Shown: piece after piece, positions 2,658 through 14,709 of the stretch
Layout: every line of letters begins with the position of its first letter
Numbering within the stretch: the first letter of the stretch is position 1
Origin: a virus
DNA: 25,394 nt
Virus record (IMG/VR): IMGVR_UViG_3300030117_004421
Span: 1-25,394 of that record
Reading direction: 5' to 3' (one strand)
Program-made: the position numbers and the translations under genes
The notes under the pieces: generated by a model
Told to the model about the DNA's origin: nothing
Database searches by the model: none
Seen by the model: the letters and a program-made list of their open reading frames with translations, nothing else

Positions 2658-4274
2658 TTACTGAGCCATGTCCGCTATCTGGGCGACTTTCAGACCGGCA
2701 TCGGCCAGTTGCGGTGCAGAGTTTATAGCCGTCTGGGCCATTTCCGCTTGCTGGCGCTGGCCGCGCATTTCGGCAACTTCTTCTTCATCGCGAAGGATGC
2801 GTTGCGGAGCGCCGTTAATCTCGGCCAGGGAACGTGTAATTTCATCGGTGTTAAAGTTATCCATCACCGAAGGATCAACGGCGGCAATGGCCTGGACACT
2901 CTCCAGGGTTCTCAGGATGCCGACGCCCTCTGGTGCCCGCATAGCTTGCGTCAGTGGGCTAACATACTCAACTTCGTATTCGCCCGCCGCTTCCTCAAGA
3001 ACAGGTGGCGGTGGAGGAATAACGCCCTGTTCGGCAAGCACGGCAAATTCACGTTCAATCAACGGTCCCAACGCTTCCGACTGCTGTCGGCCCACCGTAG
3101 GCGCCAACAGGGCGCCTTTTTCCTGGGCACGTTGTAACACTTCCGTTGCAGTCATTTGCGGCGATTCCACAAGGATTTGAAATAAAGTCACCAGGAAGGA
3201 ATCGTTAATCATCTTCCGGCGCTGTTCCATCATTTCAAGGCCGATGTCTACACGGGCGCCGGTATAAAGGGGCTGAATAGGCGCCTGGGAACGCCCATCC
3301 ATCCTCGCAAACGTCGCCGCTCCAGGCTTGGCGTTCACAGGGAGAATGACGCCGTCGTCTGCAATAATAAGAGGGGGATCAACGGCCTTCTGTCCGGCGC
3401 GGATCACCGTCTTCGACATTTCGTTAATCATCTTGATGTCCGGCAAGATCGTCATGGCGGGAGATCGTCCGTAGACCTCACGCGGGCCGGTCACATAACG
3501 GCTGACAATATAAGGCATATCGTCAAAGCCGCCTTCCTCTATAAGCTGCTGTTCTTTCACTTCGTAATACCCAGAGAACCACGGGCGGTTACGCCGGTCC
3601 CGTGCGGACATATCGCGGTCAGTACGCGGGCAGACCAGATGTATCAGTTCAACCTTGTCGTCCGGCTTGTCTTCCGCTTGCTTGCGAAGATTGTCGGACA
3701 GGTCGCCGTCCTCAAACATTCTCAGCGCTTGCCGTGCCGTCACCTGGAACTTGCGGAACACCGTATCAACGCGGCCCATTTCGTTTTCGGCAATATACAG
3801 ATCGGACAAATGGACTTGCCGGTACATCAGGCCACCATCGGGATGCTCATCAACAAAAAGAGCGCCCGTTCCAAAGGCACCAAGGGCCATGTAGCCCTCA
3901 TGCATTTCCTTGGAGAAACTGGCTTTCGGGGAATAGCGGTAGCCGAACATGATACTTGTGACCTGGTCAAACCAAAGCCGGACATCATGGTCACGGTTGA
4001 GAACGGGATCAGTGGACCGCAACTGGTGCCAGCGGGAACCGCGGGGGGTCAACAGGCTTTCAATGGCAGAAGCAAAACGCTCACAGGCGAGGGCAGCAGT
4101 GGCGTCATATAATTTTGATGTGCGTTTATCGCCCGCTGTCAACTCACCCGTGAATATGCGCGAACGCGGCAGAACACGTTCGGCTATTTCCTCCCAATGC
4201 CCTTCCCATACGGATCGGTCATTCTTGAGGCGGGCATAGCGGGTAAAAACTTCTTTGGTATCAGGAGCAGCCAT
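2658..4274 (-). CDS. Portal (head-tail connector) protein (538 aa)
   Basis: The portal forms the ring at the head vertex through which DNA enters and to which the tail attaches. The protein matches the T7-type head-tail connector family in length (about 500-560 aa) and pattern. It has an N-terminal helical part with RYARLKNDRSVWEGHWEEIAE and YDATAALACERFASAIESLLTPRGSRWH. A central clip/stem region holds DMPYIVSRY and EVYGRSPAMTILPDIKMINEMSK, and ATEVLQRAQEKGALLAPTVGR lies near the C-terminal wing. The last 60 residues are Q/A-rich. GGAGG precedes the ATG, whose first base is shared with the TGA of the preceding M-C peptide. Confidence 0.93.
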   Translation of the reverse strand: MAAPDTKEVFTRYARLKNDRSVWEGHWEEIAERVLPRSRIFTGELTAGDKRTSKLYDATAALACERFASAIESLLTPRGSRWHQLRSTDPVLNRDHDVRLWFDQVTSIMFGYRYSPKASFSKEMHEGYMALGAFGTGALFVDEHPDGGLMYRQVHLSDLYIAENEMGRVDTVFRKFQVTARQALRMFEDGDLSDNLRKQAEDKPDDKVELIHLVCPRTDRDMSARDRRNRPWFSGYYEVKEQQLIEEGGFDDMPYIVSRYVTGPREVYGRSPAMTILPDIKMINEMSKTVIRAGQKAVDPPLIIADDGVILPVNAKPGAATFARMDGRSQAPIQPLYTGARVDIGLEMMEQRRKMINDSFLVTLFQILVESPQMTATEVLQRAQEKGALLAPTVGRQQSEALGPLIEREFAVLAEQGVIPPPPPVLEEAAGEYEVEYVSPLTQAMRAPEGVGILRTLESVQAIAAVDPSVMDNFNTDEITRSLAEINGAPQRILRDEEEVAEMRGQRQQAEMAQTAINSAPQLADAGLKVAQIADMAQ

Positions 4275-4483
4275 CAGACCTCCAAAAGCGTATTCTTGCG
4301 GATTGCCGCCACTTCAGTATTGCGCGGCGTTCCCATTAATGTTGTCTGCACACCGTTACGCGGAGCGGACCCGCCACCGTAATTGGCCGTGGCATCCCGC
4401 TGCGCTTTATCCAGCCGCGCACCCATAGAAGATGCGGGCAGCTTCTTCCCGCCCGATTGCCGGTACATACCAGGGACGCACAA
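4274..4483 (-). CDS. Small M-C peptide 3 (69 aa, TTG start), related to the two upstream peptides
   Basis: The reading frame is open further upstream, but a TTG at 4483, seven bases after AGGGGG, gives an N-terminus of M-C-V-P-G. This matches the M-C-V-G-P and M-C-I-G-P starts of the two genes upstream. All three share a C-terminal pattern: a Thr-Leu/Ile block (here QTTLMGTP) and a final TLL. ATG at 4468 (64 aa) is the alternative start, but it has a poor ribosome site. The protein is short, basic and probably partly unfolded. Its place just before the portal suggests a role in head or virion assembly; no function is known to me. Confidence 0.6.
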   Translation of the reverse strand: MCVPGMYRQSGGKKLPASSMGARLDKAQRDATANYGGGSAPRNGVQTTLMGTPRNTEVAAIRKNTLLEV

Positions 4484-4484
4484 A

Positions 4485-4559
4485 CTATTTCCCCCTGGGC
4501 TTCGGCTTCTTCGGCGGTCTGCCGCGCTTACTTCCGTATGTTCCCTTGCCTTTTGGCAT
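4485..4559 (-). CDS. 24-aa basic GRPPKK peptide
   Basis: A perfect AGGAGG site stands five bases before the ATG. The 24-aa product begins MPKGKGTYGSKRGRPPKK, contains an AT-hook-like GRP core and carries no acidic residue. Very similar mini-proteins are common beside portal genes in phages, in my experience of such genomes. It could bind DNA in the head or serve in assembly. The stop lies one base before the TTG start of the next gene. It is too short for standard gene callers. Confidence 0.72.
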   Translation of the reverse strand: MPKGKGTYGSKRGRPPKKPKPRGK

Positions 4560-4560
4560 A

Positions 4561-4779
4561 TCATCCTCCTAACAAAGTAGGCCGTCCGATGTTGGGTTCC
4601 CCCAAAACGCCTGATGGCGTAGTCATTAATGTGGATCGGCGCCCACCGGCTTGAACACGCGCACGGCGGCGGGCTTGCGCTCCGGCCCCGCTGTCGCTTG
4701 GCGGCAGACTTGTTTCAATAAGAGGAGGCGGGGGTGGCGGGGGTGGCGGTTTTGGTGGGTCGGGCGGGCCTACACACAT
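4561..4779 (-). CDS. Small proline-rich M-C peptide 2 (72 aa)
   Basis: It starts M-C-V-G-P and has a run of prolines at residues 10-19, then a basic stretch (ARRRARVQAGGRR), then STLMTTPSG and NIGRPTLLGG at the end. The end is clearly related to that of the neighbouring 74-aa peptide (STILTGSMG, NIGKTLLGN), so the two look like tandem duplicates. AGGAAA stands five bases before the ATG, in the overlapping end of the upstream gene. Its own stop region (GGAGGATGA) supplies the ribosome site of the 24-aa gene. Function unknown; the place suggests a virion or assembly role. Confidence 0.72.
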   Translation of the reverse strand: MCVGPPDPPKPPPPPPPPPLIETSLPPSDSGAGAQARRRARVQAGGRRSTLMTTPSGVLGEPNIGRPTLLGG

Positions 4780-12256: not shown

Positions 12257-12878
12257 CAGACCACCTTTCCTGGTTCAGCCATGTGCTAGGGTAGGGGATA
12301 TAATTTTTGTCCTGACCGATTGCCGCTTGGATAAATCGATCACGGCCCTGGCAGAGGGTTTCAAAATCAGTTTTTTTGAGGGCGGTTTTGAACGCCTTTC
12401 GGGCGCCACCTTTGCCGACTTTTCGGGGCCAGGTTTCATACCATTGCTCAAACAGATTATCTGCTTTGAGCGAAAGAGATACGTTAGTATCTCTTATACT
12501 AGGTATAGGTGTAGGTGTAGGTGCATTGCGTTCGCATACTACTTTTTCCTTTTGCCACCGTGACTTAGCGGAAGCGCTATTCTTTTTCGCTTTTTTCTTC
12601 ACATACTCATATTCTTCTTTAAGACGCTTTTGTGTGATATGATTTCCAGTGGTGATAAAGAACTCATCCAGCAGATTTTTGACCAGGTTTTCCATCTGCT
12701 GATCGGTGGCCCGAAGGCGCCTTTTGACCCACTCCAAATCGTTCGGAATTTTGCAGTCTGGGGACCGCCAGATCGTCATCAAAAGCATCAGATACAGACC
12801 ATGTTCTTCATGCGTCAGGTGCAACGTGTCGGCTAAATAAGCGTCAACCCAAAGCGGCAAATGAGGAAATTTAGCCAT
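12144..12878 (-). CDS. DUF1376 (YdaU-like) replication initiator protein (244 aa)
   Basis: The N-terminus reads FPHLPLWVDAYLADTLHLTHEEHGLYLMLLMTIWRSPDCKIPND, the classic DUF1376 signature (a winged-helix domain of phage replication proteins). A Lys-rich linker (residues 85-110) follows, then a second domain with FEQWYETWPRKVGKGGARKAFKTALKK and YIPYPSTWLNQERWSDD, also usual in this group. It likely binds the origin and recruits helicase. AGGAGG stands nine bases before the ATG. The C-terminal 37 codons share DNA with the next gene. Confidence 0.85.
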   Translation of the reverse strand: MAKFPHLPLWVDAYLADTLHLTHEEHGLYLMLLMTIWRSPDCKIPNDLEWVKRRLRATDQQMENLVKNLLDEFFITTGNHITQKRLKEEYEYVKKKAKKNSASAKSRWQKEKVVCERNAPTPTPIPSIRDTNVSLSLKADNLFEQWYETWPRKVGKGGARKAFKTALKKTDFETLCQGRDRFIQAAIGQDKNYIPYPSTWLNQERWSDDTTAINPAPIAIRSGNGTQSASIAAAVGGFVARRGG

Positions 12879-13317
12879 CGTTTAATTCCTCCTGGGGCAC
12901 AAAGTAGGCCGGACGCCCACCCACGGGGTCTTTCCACCACTTGTCCTGTTTGGCGTCGGCCCCTTTAATCCAGCCTTTAATTTCATATTGGCCGTGCATT
13001 CCCACCAACAGGTAAAACAATCGGTCATCTGCATCGTATGGATGCACAATTAAACTGCCGTTTTTATGGCTGGTTGCGCGGCAATCCACGTTGCCAACAT
13101 CGGGGATTTCCCTGTTTGTGTGGTCTGCAAGAAACACGTTTAAATGTTTCGCCAGCGCCATTTCACTGATGGCCCCTTCAATTGACCGCTCCCAGGTGCC
13201 TGTTGGGGGTGTATTGCGGAGTTCAGAACGCTTCGCTTTATTCCTTCTCAGCAACCGCATTACGCCGATCATGGCGCCCTGGAAAACTTCCGCATATGAC
13301 AACGTGATCTCTGTCAT
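12871..13317 (-). CDS. Conserved phage protein of unknown function, possible nuclease-like fold (148 aa)
   Basis: The middle reads GTWERSIEGAISEMALAKHL, then VGNVDCRATSHKNGSLIVHPYDADDRLFYLLVG, then KGWIKGADA and GGRPAYFVPQEEL. The order E...E...VDCRA is compatible with a PD-(D/E)XK-type core, but the key Lys is Arg here and I cannot confirm activity. I know the overall pattern from phages as an unnamed family. It is coupled to the DpdA-like gene by an ATGA overlap, so a link with DNA modification or replication is worth considering. Confidence 0.6.
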   Translation of the reverse strand: MTEITLSYAEVFQGAMIGVMRLLRRNKAKRSELRNTPPTGTWERSIEGAISEMALAKHLNVFLADHTNREIPDVGNVDCRATSHKNGSLIVHPYDADDRLFYLLVGMHGQYEIKGWIKGADAKQDKWWKDPVGGRPAYFVPQEELNDG

Positions 13318-13997
13318 CGAACGATACTCATTAAATCAATTTGCACTGGTTTTTTAGTCCACCGCATTTGCGGCTGGCTGCAATCCCAACGCGCAACCAT
13401 GCTTTCAATCGTGTTCTGTTTTCTGTTGTTATTTCTGGCCACGTCAGCGGAATCCACTGAACCAAATGGATATAGATGGCCAACGCCCTGCATTCTCAGA
13501 CCGTGCAGCCAGGGCATTCGGCCTCGTTTTGACACTTCATTAAACGCCTCTGTCATGCGGTCATGCCATTTATCTGTGCCAACTTCGGGATATTCACCGG
13601 CACTCCCAATGCAGACCTTTGGCCAGGTTTCTATCAGTGCCAACAATCGATCTATCGGCTCATTGAGGTGCCAGACAGGGGCACCACGATCACCATGTGG
13701 CCACTGCTTAATCAATGCGTTTTGTTCAGCCTCAGAACCGTCAATTACATCAGGGATAATTGCCCAGGTTGTGACGCAATCCAGCCACATATCAGCCCAC
13801 TCGTAATAACTTTCCCAATCCACTTTCTTGCCGGATTTCCATACGGAAAAGGCGCCGTTATCCAACAAAACCGACTGTGAAATTTGATGTGCTATGGTTG
13901 CGGCAGTCGGATAAGCATGGCTGATAAGCAAGTGCCGCCCAGCCATTTCAATCAACCGATGGTTCGGATAGATGTCGCCGCAATGATAGTGGATCAT
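13314..13997 (-). CDS. TGT/DpdA-like DNA 7-deazaguanine transglycosylase (227 aa)
   Basis: Pattern of the tRNA-guanine transglycosylase superfamily as seen in phage DpdA-type proteins, which swap guanine in DNA for a 7-deazaguanine base. From ATG 13997: LLDNGAFSVW with Asp 46 (the DSGGF equivalent), TWAIIPDVIDG at about 77-87, PVWHLNE at 107-113, IGSAGEYPEVG at 130-140, LHGLRMQG at 164-171, and SVDSADVARN with Asp 182, the likely nucleophile position. The TGT zinc site is not visible. In-frame GTG codons at 14009 and 14000 are alternatives; the ATG is preferred because it overlaps the preceding stop (TGATG) after GAGG. Its partner genes upstream, a 79-aa T-fold-like protein and a YhhQ transporter, support the pathway. 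Confidence 0.75.
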   Translation of the reverse strand: MIHYHCGDIYPNHRLIEMAGRHLLISHAYPTAATIAHQISQSVLLDNGAFSVWKSGKKVDWESYYEWADMWLDCVTTWAIIPDVIDGSEAEQNALIKQWPHGDRGAPVWHLNEPIDRLLALIETWPKVCIGSAGEYPEVGTDKWHDRMTEAFNEVSKRGRMPWLHGLRMQGVGHLYPFGSVDSADVARNNNRKQNTIESMVARWDCSQPQMRWTKKPVQIDLMSIVR

Positions 13998-14236
13998 CAC
14001 GCCTCGCACACCGTCTTCACGCCTGAGTGCCAGCCGGTTGAGATTACTTTTGCTCCCAGCAACCGTGCTAAATTTTCTGTAAGAGTTTCTTGAAACGCCT
14101 CTGGCTGATCTTTAGTTAGCCGCAAAATATCCTCAACAGGGATCGTGCGGTCAGAGATAACCTCAACCTCATAGACATCTTTTTTCTTATCCACGGGGCA
14201 AACGGCTTGCATCTTGAATGCATACGTTACGCGCAT
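13997..14236 (-). CDS. Mini T-fold-like protein between transporter and transglycosylase (79 aa)
   Basis: Predicted beta-beta-alpha-beta: VTYAFKMQAVCPV, DVYEVEVISDRTIPVED, then AFQETLTENLARLLGA, then KVISTGWHSGVKTVC. The CPV strand end, and the QETLTENLA helix followed by a GWHSGV strand, recall T-fold enzymes of the FolE/QueF/QueD type, which handle pterins and 7-deazaguanines, but the protein is only about half a normal domain. I see no complete catalytic set. GAGG lies five bases before the ATG, the start overlaps the transporter end by ten bases, and the stop overlaps the transglycosylase ATG. The tight coupling argues for a role in the same pathway; the fold assignment is inference. Confidence 0.55.
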   Translation of the reverse strand: MRVTYAFKMQAVCPVDKKKDVYEVEVISDRTIPVEDILRLTKDQPEAFQETLTENLARLLGAKVISTGWHSGVKTVCEA

Positions 14237-14709
14237 CGTCGCCTCACAATCTGCCAGACGATAAGGGCACCTAACATTTTAGAAATTGTCATAGCGACAA
14301 CGCCCGTAACTGATAGATGGTTGATCATTGCCAGAAAAACCATGCTATCAATGGGCGTTGCCAGCGCACTAGACCACAAAATCCGATCCGCAAACGGCTT
14401 TTTCGTAAAAGAATACAAGCCCCAATCCGCAAACTCGCTTAACAAAAATGCGGTTAATGAGGCAAGGGCGACAAATGGGCTTGCCATAACGTATGACAGT
14501 GCGGCTGCAATGAGCATTGCCAGAATGACACGGTGGCCAAACTCACGTTGCGCGTAATCTCTTGCGACAAAAATCAACCCCACCGCCAAAGACATGGGCG
14601 GCCACATTTCACCCCCAGGCATTTCTAGCAACGGGACGACGGTGAAGCCCCAGTTTACCAGCACAATCAATGCAATGTATCCAAGCGTGTATCTATAACT
14701 CATCATCAT
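14227..14709 (-). CDS. yhhQ: YhhQ/VUT-family queuosine-precursor transporter (160 aa)
   Basis: An inner-membrane protein of the YhhQ (VUT) family, which imports queuosine precursors such as preQ0 and preQ1. Five or six membrane segments are seen: YIALIVLVNWGFTVVPLL, MSLAVGLIFVARDYAQREFG, VILAMLIAAALSYVMA, VALASLTAFLLSEFADWGLY, SSALATPIDSMVFLAMI and VTGVVAMTISKMLGALIVW. The SEFADWGLYSF and TPIDSMVF motifs are family signatures. At 160 aa it is shorter than many bacterial forms (about 220). GGAG precedes three successive ATGs. The only obvious purpose in a phage is to feed the DpdA-like enzyme two genes on. Confidence 0.87.
   Translation of the reverse strand: MMMSYRYTLGYIALIVLVNWGFTVVPLLEMPGGEMWPPMSLAVGLIFVARDYAQREFGHRVILAMLIAAALSYVMASPFVALASLTAFLLSEFADWGLYSFTKKPFADRILWSSALATPIDSMVFLAMINHLSVTGVVAMTISKMLGALIVWQIVRRRCA

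Follow-up and report, generated by a model that had tools for sequence, protein, structure and literature searches.

A compact phage cassette with a predicted importer, DNA transglycosylase and QueF-Like protein for 7-deazaguanine modification

Three overlapping genes of a phage probably constitute a minimal kit for DNA modification, in which a 7-deazaguanine base is imported, inserted by DpdA and finished by a QueF-Like protein. The genes are located in a stretch of viral DNA of 25,394 bp (the window), which is a complete IMG/VR record and which also encodes phage capsid, head-tail connector, terminase, SSB, RecE/RecT-like and serine-recombinase genes. The cassette is a variant, with a new makeup, of the known phage 7-deazaguanine systems. 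An earlier note on this DNA had proposed salvage, that is, uptake of the base or its precursor followed by insertion; that idea holds up, but salvage and insertion are not the whole of it. Since the smallest of the three proteins (79 aa) is nearest to QueF-Like, the cassette is read as import, insertion and nitrile conversion, a finishing step being added.

In the mechanism that we propose, the VUT protein would import preQ0 (7-cyano-7-deazaguanine) into the infected cell and DpdA would swap guanines in the phage DNA for preQ0 after replication. The cysteine of the 79-aa protein would then attack the nitrile of preQ0 to form a thioimide, which ammonia would turn into the formamidine of 2'-deoxyarchaeosine (dG+) or, alternatively, water into the carboxamide dADG. 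What we infer is the substrate, whether insertion precedes finishing, the product and the protection from host nucleases. A broader proposal seems plausible and is put forward tentatively: that the 79-aa protein acts on DNA as an archaeosine synthase and is smaller than the other QueF and QueF-Like proteins compared, that phages as well as prophages have the import-insert-finish cassette, which recurs with two transglycosylase families, phrog_887 and the uncharacterised phrog_15826, and that the importer occurs in phages of hosts incapable of making preQ0. The family phrog_37496, small and previously unnamed, is given a specific and testable chemistry.

The genes and their arrangement

All three genes lie on the minus strand; the VUT gene comes first, then the 79-aa gene and then dpdA, and each overlaps the next. 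The first (14227..14709) encodes a YhhQ/VUT-family protein of 160 aa, probably a membrane protein, predicted from profiles and from homology to a protein of phage CAjan to import preQ0, a 7-deazaguanine base; the second (13997..14236) encodes a putative minimal QueF-Like (archaeosine-synthase-like) T-fold protein of 79 aa, assigned by AlphaFold and Foldseek, hhalign and a residue map; the third (13314..13997) encodes a DpdA-type DNA guanine transglycosylase of phrog_887 (227 aa), assigned by profiles, invariant Asp residues and a structural model. The VUT gene (14709-14227) and the 79-aa gene (14236-13997) share 10 nt, and in TGATG at 13997 the stop of the 79-aa gene overlaps the ATG of dpdA by 1 nt; the three genes are translationally coupled. 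The start of DpdA is placed at the ATG at 13997, which gives 227 aa, because its homologues begin with MIHYH, and there is no need for the GTG at 14009.

The same gene order is present in independent contigs, with identity down to about 35-43%, and the three overlapping genes that the earlier note described are confirmed. Between the 79-aa gene and two relatives there are 33-35 synonymous and 10-12 non-synonymous changes (dS>1, dN 0.06-0.07), dpdA compared with contig L014 has dS 0.50 and dN 0.031, and the relatives used for these comparisons also have a conserved VUT gene. The mostly synonymous divergence, together with the conservation of the VUT gene, indicates that all three are genuine genes and not chance reading frames, and dN well below dS in the 79-aa gene and dpdA points to purifying selection on these two. 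Taken from the sequences, the gene identities (by homology), the conserved residues, the strict neighbourhood and this selection are the established part of our reading.

A gene for an uncharacterised phrog_18407 protein of 148 aa (12871..13317, minus strand) is coupled to dpdA through ATGA at 13317-13314, where the stop of dpdA overlaps its start. It adjoins dpdA in the closest relatives (L009, L010, L014 and L015) and is absent from that place in the more diverged L007 and L016; it was rejected as a fourth component of the cassette because it is present in the closest relatives only.

The transporter and the transglycosylase

The 160-aa protein has several hydrophobic segments by hydropathy and scores slightly below the cut-off of Pfam Vut_1 (1.1e-5, 26.3 bits against 27.2) and below that of TIGR00697, the queuosine precursor transporter family (5e-8, 33 bits against 51). 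Over 98% of its length it shares 45% of its residues (E 5e-34) with CAjan's putative preQ0 transporter, whose gene sits between those for QueC and QueD. The YhhQ/VUT assignment therefore held up despite the low profile scores, and the protein is a VUT homologue short of the curated cut-offs, predicted by homology to import preQ0. Transport of preQ0 is known for YhhQ of E. coli (Zallot et al. 2017, cited in PMC6884629), and no transport test of the phage VUT proteins was found.

The 227-aa protein belongs to phrog_887 (E 9.4e-53), a family named queuine tRNA-ribosyltransferase, and has relatives in 104 phage records, among them Pantoea phage MED16 (41% identity). In hmmsearch the profile of its family detected the DpdAs of CAjan/Seurat (E 5.9e-10), a Rhizobium phage (E 7e-12), Funsized (E 4e-10) and Dp-1 (E 9.3e-7), and in hhalign it matched the validated DpdAs with prob 99.0 and P 3.6e-18. 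In CAjan, deletion of dpdA abolishes the modification (PMC6884629). Three residues, D47, D84 and D183 (numbered with one residue counted before the ATG), lie in the motifs LDNGAF, IPDVI and SVDS, do not vary among 40 homologues and align with the DpdAs of Funsized and Seurat; by analogy to TGT they are candidate catalytic Asp residues.

With regard to structure, the AlphaFold model is a TIM barrel (pLDDT 89.3), but there was no TGT among the top 50 PDB matches in Foldseek, where only generic TIM barrels were found, at E 0.0036 or worse; the structural match to the TGT fold that the earlier note had asked for was not cleanly obtained. Similarly, a direct match to TGT could not be detected with hhalign and a small bacterial TGT profile (prob 0.1), which is uninformative rather than contrary, as the validated DpdAs fail with the same profile. 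The DpdA/TGT-like reading is upheld by the profile match to the validated DpdAs and by the relative in MED16, whose DNA contains dADG, and in terms of sequence the 227-aa protein is a true relative of DpdA. In one phage contig two dpdA paralogues are present (L022:2544-3233 and 3893-4672).

The small T-fold protein and its possible functions

The AlphaFold model of the 79-aa protein (pLDDT 95.7) has the bbaabb order of a T-fold, as the T-fold-like label in the earlier note had it; the same note had left the protein aside as something less than a full queD. In profile and structure comparison, however, it comes nearest to QueF-Like. The best 13 Foldseek matches in the PDB are all QueF-Like (5jyx/5k0p; E 1.6e-6 to 1.6e-5), with TM-scores by query length of 0.76-0.86; GTP cyclohydrolase I (1.2e-4) comes next and then QueF (5.7e-3). 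In hhalign the family matches a mixed QueF/QueF-Like set (prob 85, P 5.9e-6), and the best hit of a profile of ten homologues among PDB sequences (hmmsearch) is the QueF-Like archaeosine synthase, at an E of 0.12 that alone is not significant. A QueD-type T-fold was rejected (hhalign P 0.22) and FolE/GTP cyclohydrolase is weaker both in profile (P 1.8e-3) and in fold; Pfam RexA was set aside as well, its match (E 0.23) being confined to one member of the family. The protein itself has no match in Pfam or NCBIfam, and in PHROGs its one match is the uncharacterised phrog_37496. Cui et al. 2023 reportedly describe additional subfamilies of DpdA and additional modifications; that work lay outside the scope of our literature search, which found no earlier description of phrog_37496.

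C13, D20, E35 and E50 of the 79-aa protein align with C21, D28, E46 and E63 of the QueF-Like protein of P. calidifontis, in which preQ0 is captured by Cys21 as a thioimide, the acid/base is a conserved Asp and ammonia turns the adduct of preQ0-tRNA into archaeosine (PMC5485725). Across 17 diverse sequences of the family, C13, P14, Y22, E35, E50 and H70 never vary. D20, at the position of the general acid/base Asp, is frequent and not universal, being missing in L059, L106 and Mae-JY30, and the His-Glu of QueF and QueF-Like is replaced by Gln-Glu. None of the 17 aligned homologues has the reductase stretch ESKSxKLYL, which is conserved in the four phage QueF proteins compared; they have VEDI... 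there instead, and the archaeal QueF-Like proteins lack the stretch as well. Its absence makes an NADPH reduction to preQ1 less likely. The crenarchaeal QueF-Like proteins (5jyx, 5k0p) and the 79-aa protein have in common the T-fold, the thioimide Cys, the Asp, two Glu and the lack of the QueF stretch, whereas the crenarchaeal protein has 109 aa, a tRNA substrate and His before Glu, and that of the window 79 aa, a predicted DNA substrate and Gln. Judged by sequence and model, the 79-aa protein most resembles the archaeosine-making QueF-Like enzyme and is predicted to be the finishing enzyme.

Three other functions have to be weighed against this. It is distinctly unlikely that the protein works as a reductase in the manner of bacterial QueF and that the DNA carries dPreQ1 as in phage Dp-1, even though the thioimide cysteine is common to QueF and QueF-Like (PMC5485725) and the label given by HHpred has misled before: proteins of Dp-1 and HVTV-1 were labelled QueF-Like, wrongly, as both phages carry dPreQ1 (PMC6884629). 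Against a reductase stand the loss of E-S-K-S-x-K-L-Y in 17/17 homologues and the fold search, which places QueF-Like (1.6e-6) far above QueF. It is also unlikely that the protein is a T-fold partner without catalysis or with another mode of action, such as a base carrier or a subunit of DpdA, with DNA containing dPreQ0 or only low dADG; the protein is 30 aa shorter than the QueF-Like protein of P. calidifontis, D20 is not universal and GTP cyclohydrolase I is structurally within reach, but the six invariant residues in 17 diverse sequences are those expected of an active site.

The remaining alternative concerns the target and not the chemistry, as the cassette could act on host or phage tRNA in support of the queuosine pathway. 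The literature treats DpdA and TGT as homologues, and queuine tRNA-ribosyltransferase is the name in many database entries; nevertheless this is very improbable, given that the family profile fits DNA-modifying DpdAs and not bacterial TGTs, that the relative in MED16 accompanies dADG in DNA, and that the phages surveyed in PMC6884629 lack queA/queG/queH.

Neighbourhood, known systems and supply of the base

The DNA-modification reading of the cassette can be placed against 40 non-redundant viral dpdA loci, in which the adjoining genes are VUT (about 22), the 79-aa gene (7, a share slightly inflated by two loci that came from a search with the 79-aa family) and QueD-like (about 9). About 34 of the 40 have a VUT, QueF-Like-like or QueD-like neighbour and about 6 have none; neighbours were limited to 200 bp, VUT was also counted when only the 79-aa gene intervenes, and the counts were corrected by hand, including two loci slightly beyond the limit. 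VUT and QueD-like genes never occur together at any of these 40 loci, as though either import or synthesis sufficed. Every 79-aa homologue found adjoins dpdA or phrog_15826, and the arrangements of the phrog_37496 type in IMG/VR comprise VUT-small-dpdA, dpdA-small, small-dpdA, and the small gene beside phrog_15826 with or without VUT. A scan of bacterial genomes with the pattern of the 79-aa family found nothing; it was probably too strict, because a dpdA scan later recovered the family in Massilia, Janthinobacterium, Sphingomonas and an Acetobacteraceae MAG.

The uncharacterised phrog_15826 family matches the DpdA family of the window in hhalign (prob 91.6, P 8e-7) and becomes, by sequence comparison, a candidate second, DpdA-like family of DNA transglycosylases. 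It replaces dpdA beside the QueF-Like-like gene in L011:971-1600, L096:4370-5014, L097:4385-5002 and L105:4402-5001, and in the L105 protein Glu replaces Asp in the DNGxF motif. Other small proteins were also observed beside dpdA. QueD-like proteins of about 100 aa (L029:3672-4001, L082:3657-4001, L085:1854-2156, L005:4711-5004, L067:3690-3995) keep HGH and an upstream His and lack the Cys before HGH that longer QueD neighbours (L020, L072) have, and may have a chemistry other than that of QueD. A small protein matching phrog_9572 (L003:5687-5947 and L005:5729-5983, Pam5 and Caulobacter phage DMCA) is no relative of the QueF-Like-like protein and is a possible further partner of DpdA; the middle protein of Pam5 is unrelated to the 79-aa protein and was rejected as its homologue.

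Among known systems, the DpdA-only phages MED16 and Salmonella SEN1/SW9 have a homologous dpdA and, like Salmonella phage 7-11 and the cassette, encode no genes for preQ0 biosynthesis. Virion DNA of MED16 and 7-11 contains dADG (PMC8306585, PMC6884629); the comparison of DpdA sequences covered MED16, SEN1 and SW9. In MED16 dADG amounts to about 0.13% of G by LC-MS, most of the enzymes tested with G-containing sites cut the DNA normally, and m6dA was held responsible for the resistance to MboI and Bsu15I (PMC8306585); these data do not demonstrate the protection from restriction mentioned in the earlier note. In MED16, unlike in the window, none of the genes beside dpdA carries a VUT or QueF-Like-like annotation, and the host of this phage probably makes preQ0. 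CAjan (Seuratvirus; FolE-QueD-QueE-QueC-transporter-DpdA) shares a homologous DpdA and the 45%-identical transporter, but makes its own preQ0 and has no QueF-type protein annotated in the region, whereas the window has a putative QueF-Like protein and neither QueC nor QueD. Pseudanabaena phage Pam5, Rhizobium phage N3_2 and Pectobacterium phage PEAT2 have dpdA beside VUT as in the window, and unlike it lack a QueF-Like-like gene. The phage QueF or QueF-like proteins of Dp-1, HVTV-1, MMDA13 (Gp33) and Funsized (gp2) are likewise T-fold proteins in a dpdA/preQ0 pathway; those compared differ in having 132-157 aa and the ESKS stretch, and most belong to multi-gene preQ0 pathways.

Where the base comes from is addressed by the absence of queC and queD in the 25,394-bp window, as the earlier note had stated, and likewise in 16 related contigs of 15-73 kb; the record may be a fragment, in which case their absence from it is weak evidence. 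Among 24 bacterial genomes with dpdA, queC is missing in 4 of the 7 in which the locus bears VUT and in 1 of the 17 in which it does not (one-sided Fisher p 0.0145, in a small sample with phylogeny uncontrolled), all five queC-less genomes being MAGs. All four queC-less genomes with a VUT-bearing locus also lack PTPS/QueD, and two of them (G004 and G032) have extra VUT genes elsewhere, fitting with hosts that live on imported preQ0. A wider search for host queC in one order found dpdA of the window type in 1 of 397 genomes and no further queC-less cases. The role of DpdA-only phages was left open by Hutinet et al. 2019, where phage YhhQ genes were uncorrelated with any group. Our survey finds VUT genes concentrated beside one short DpdA family, never with QueD-like genes and more commonly where the host lacks queC, and this pattern makes the salvage idea directly testable.

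In two bacterial genomes, Massilia (G006:C24:472700-479173) and Pararoseomonas (G005:C26:9437-13057), a second QueC is clustered with a QueD and a partial TGT-like match, in Massilia also with VUT, and these are separate deazaguanine clusters.
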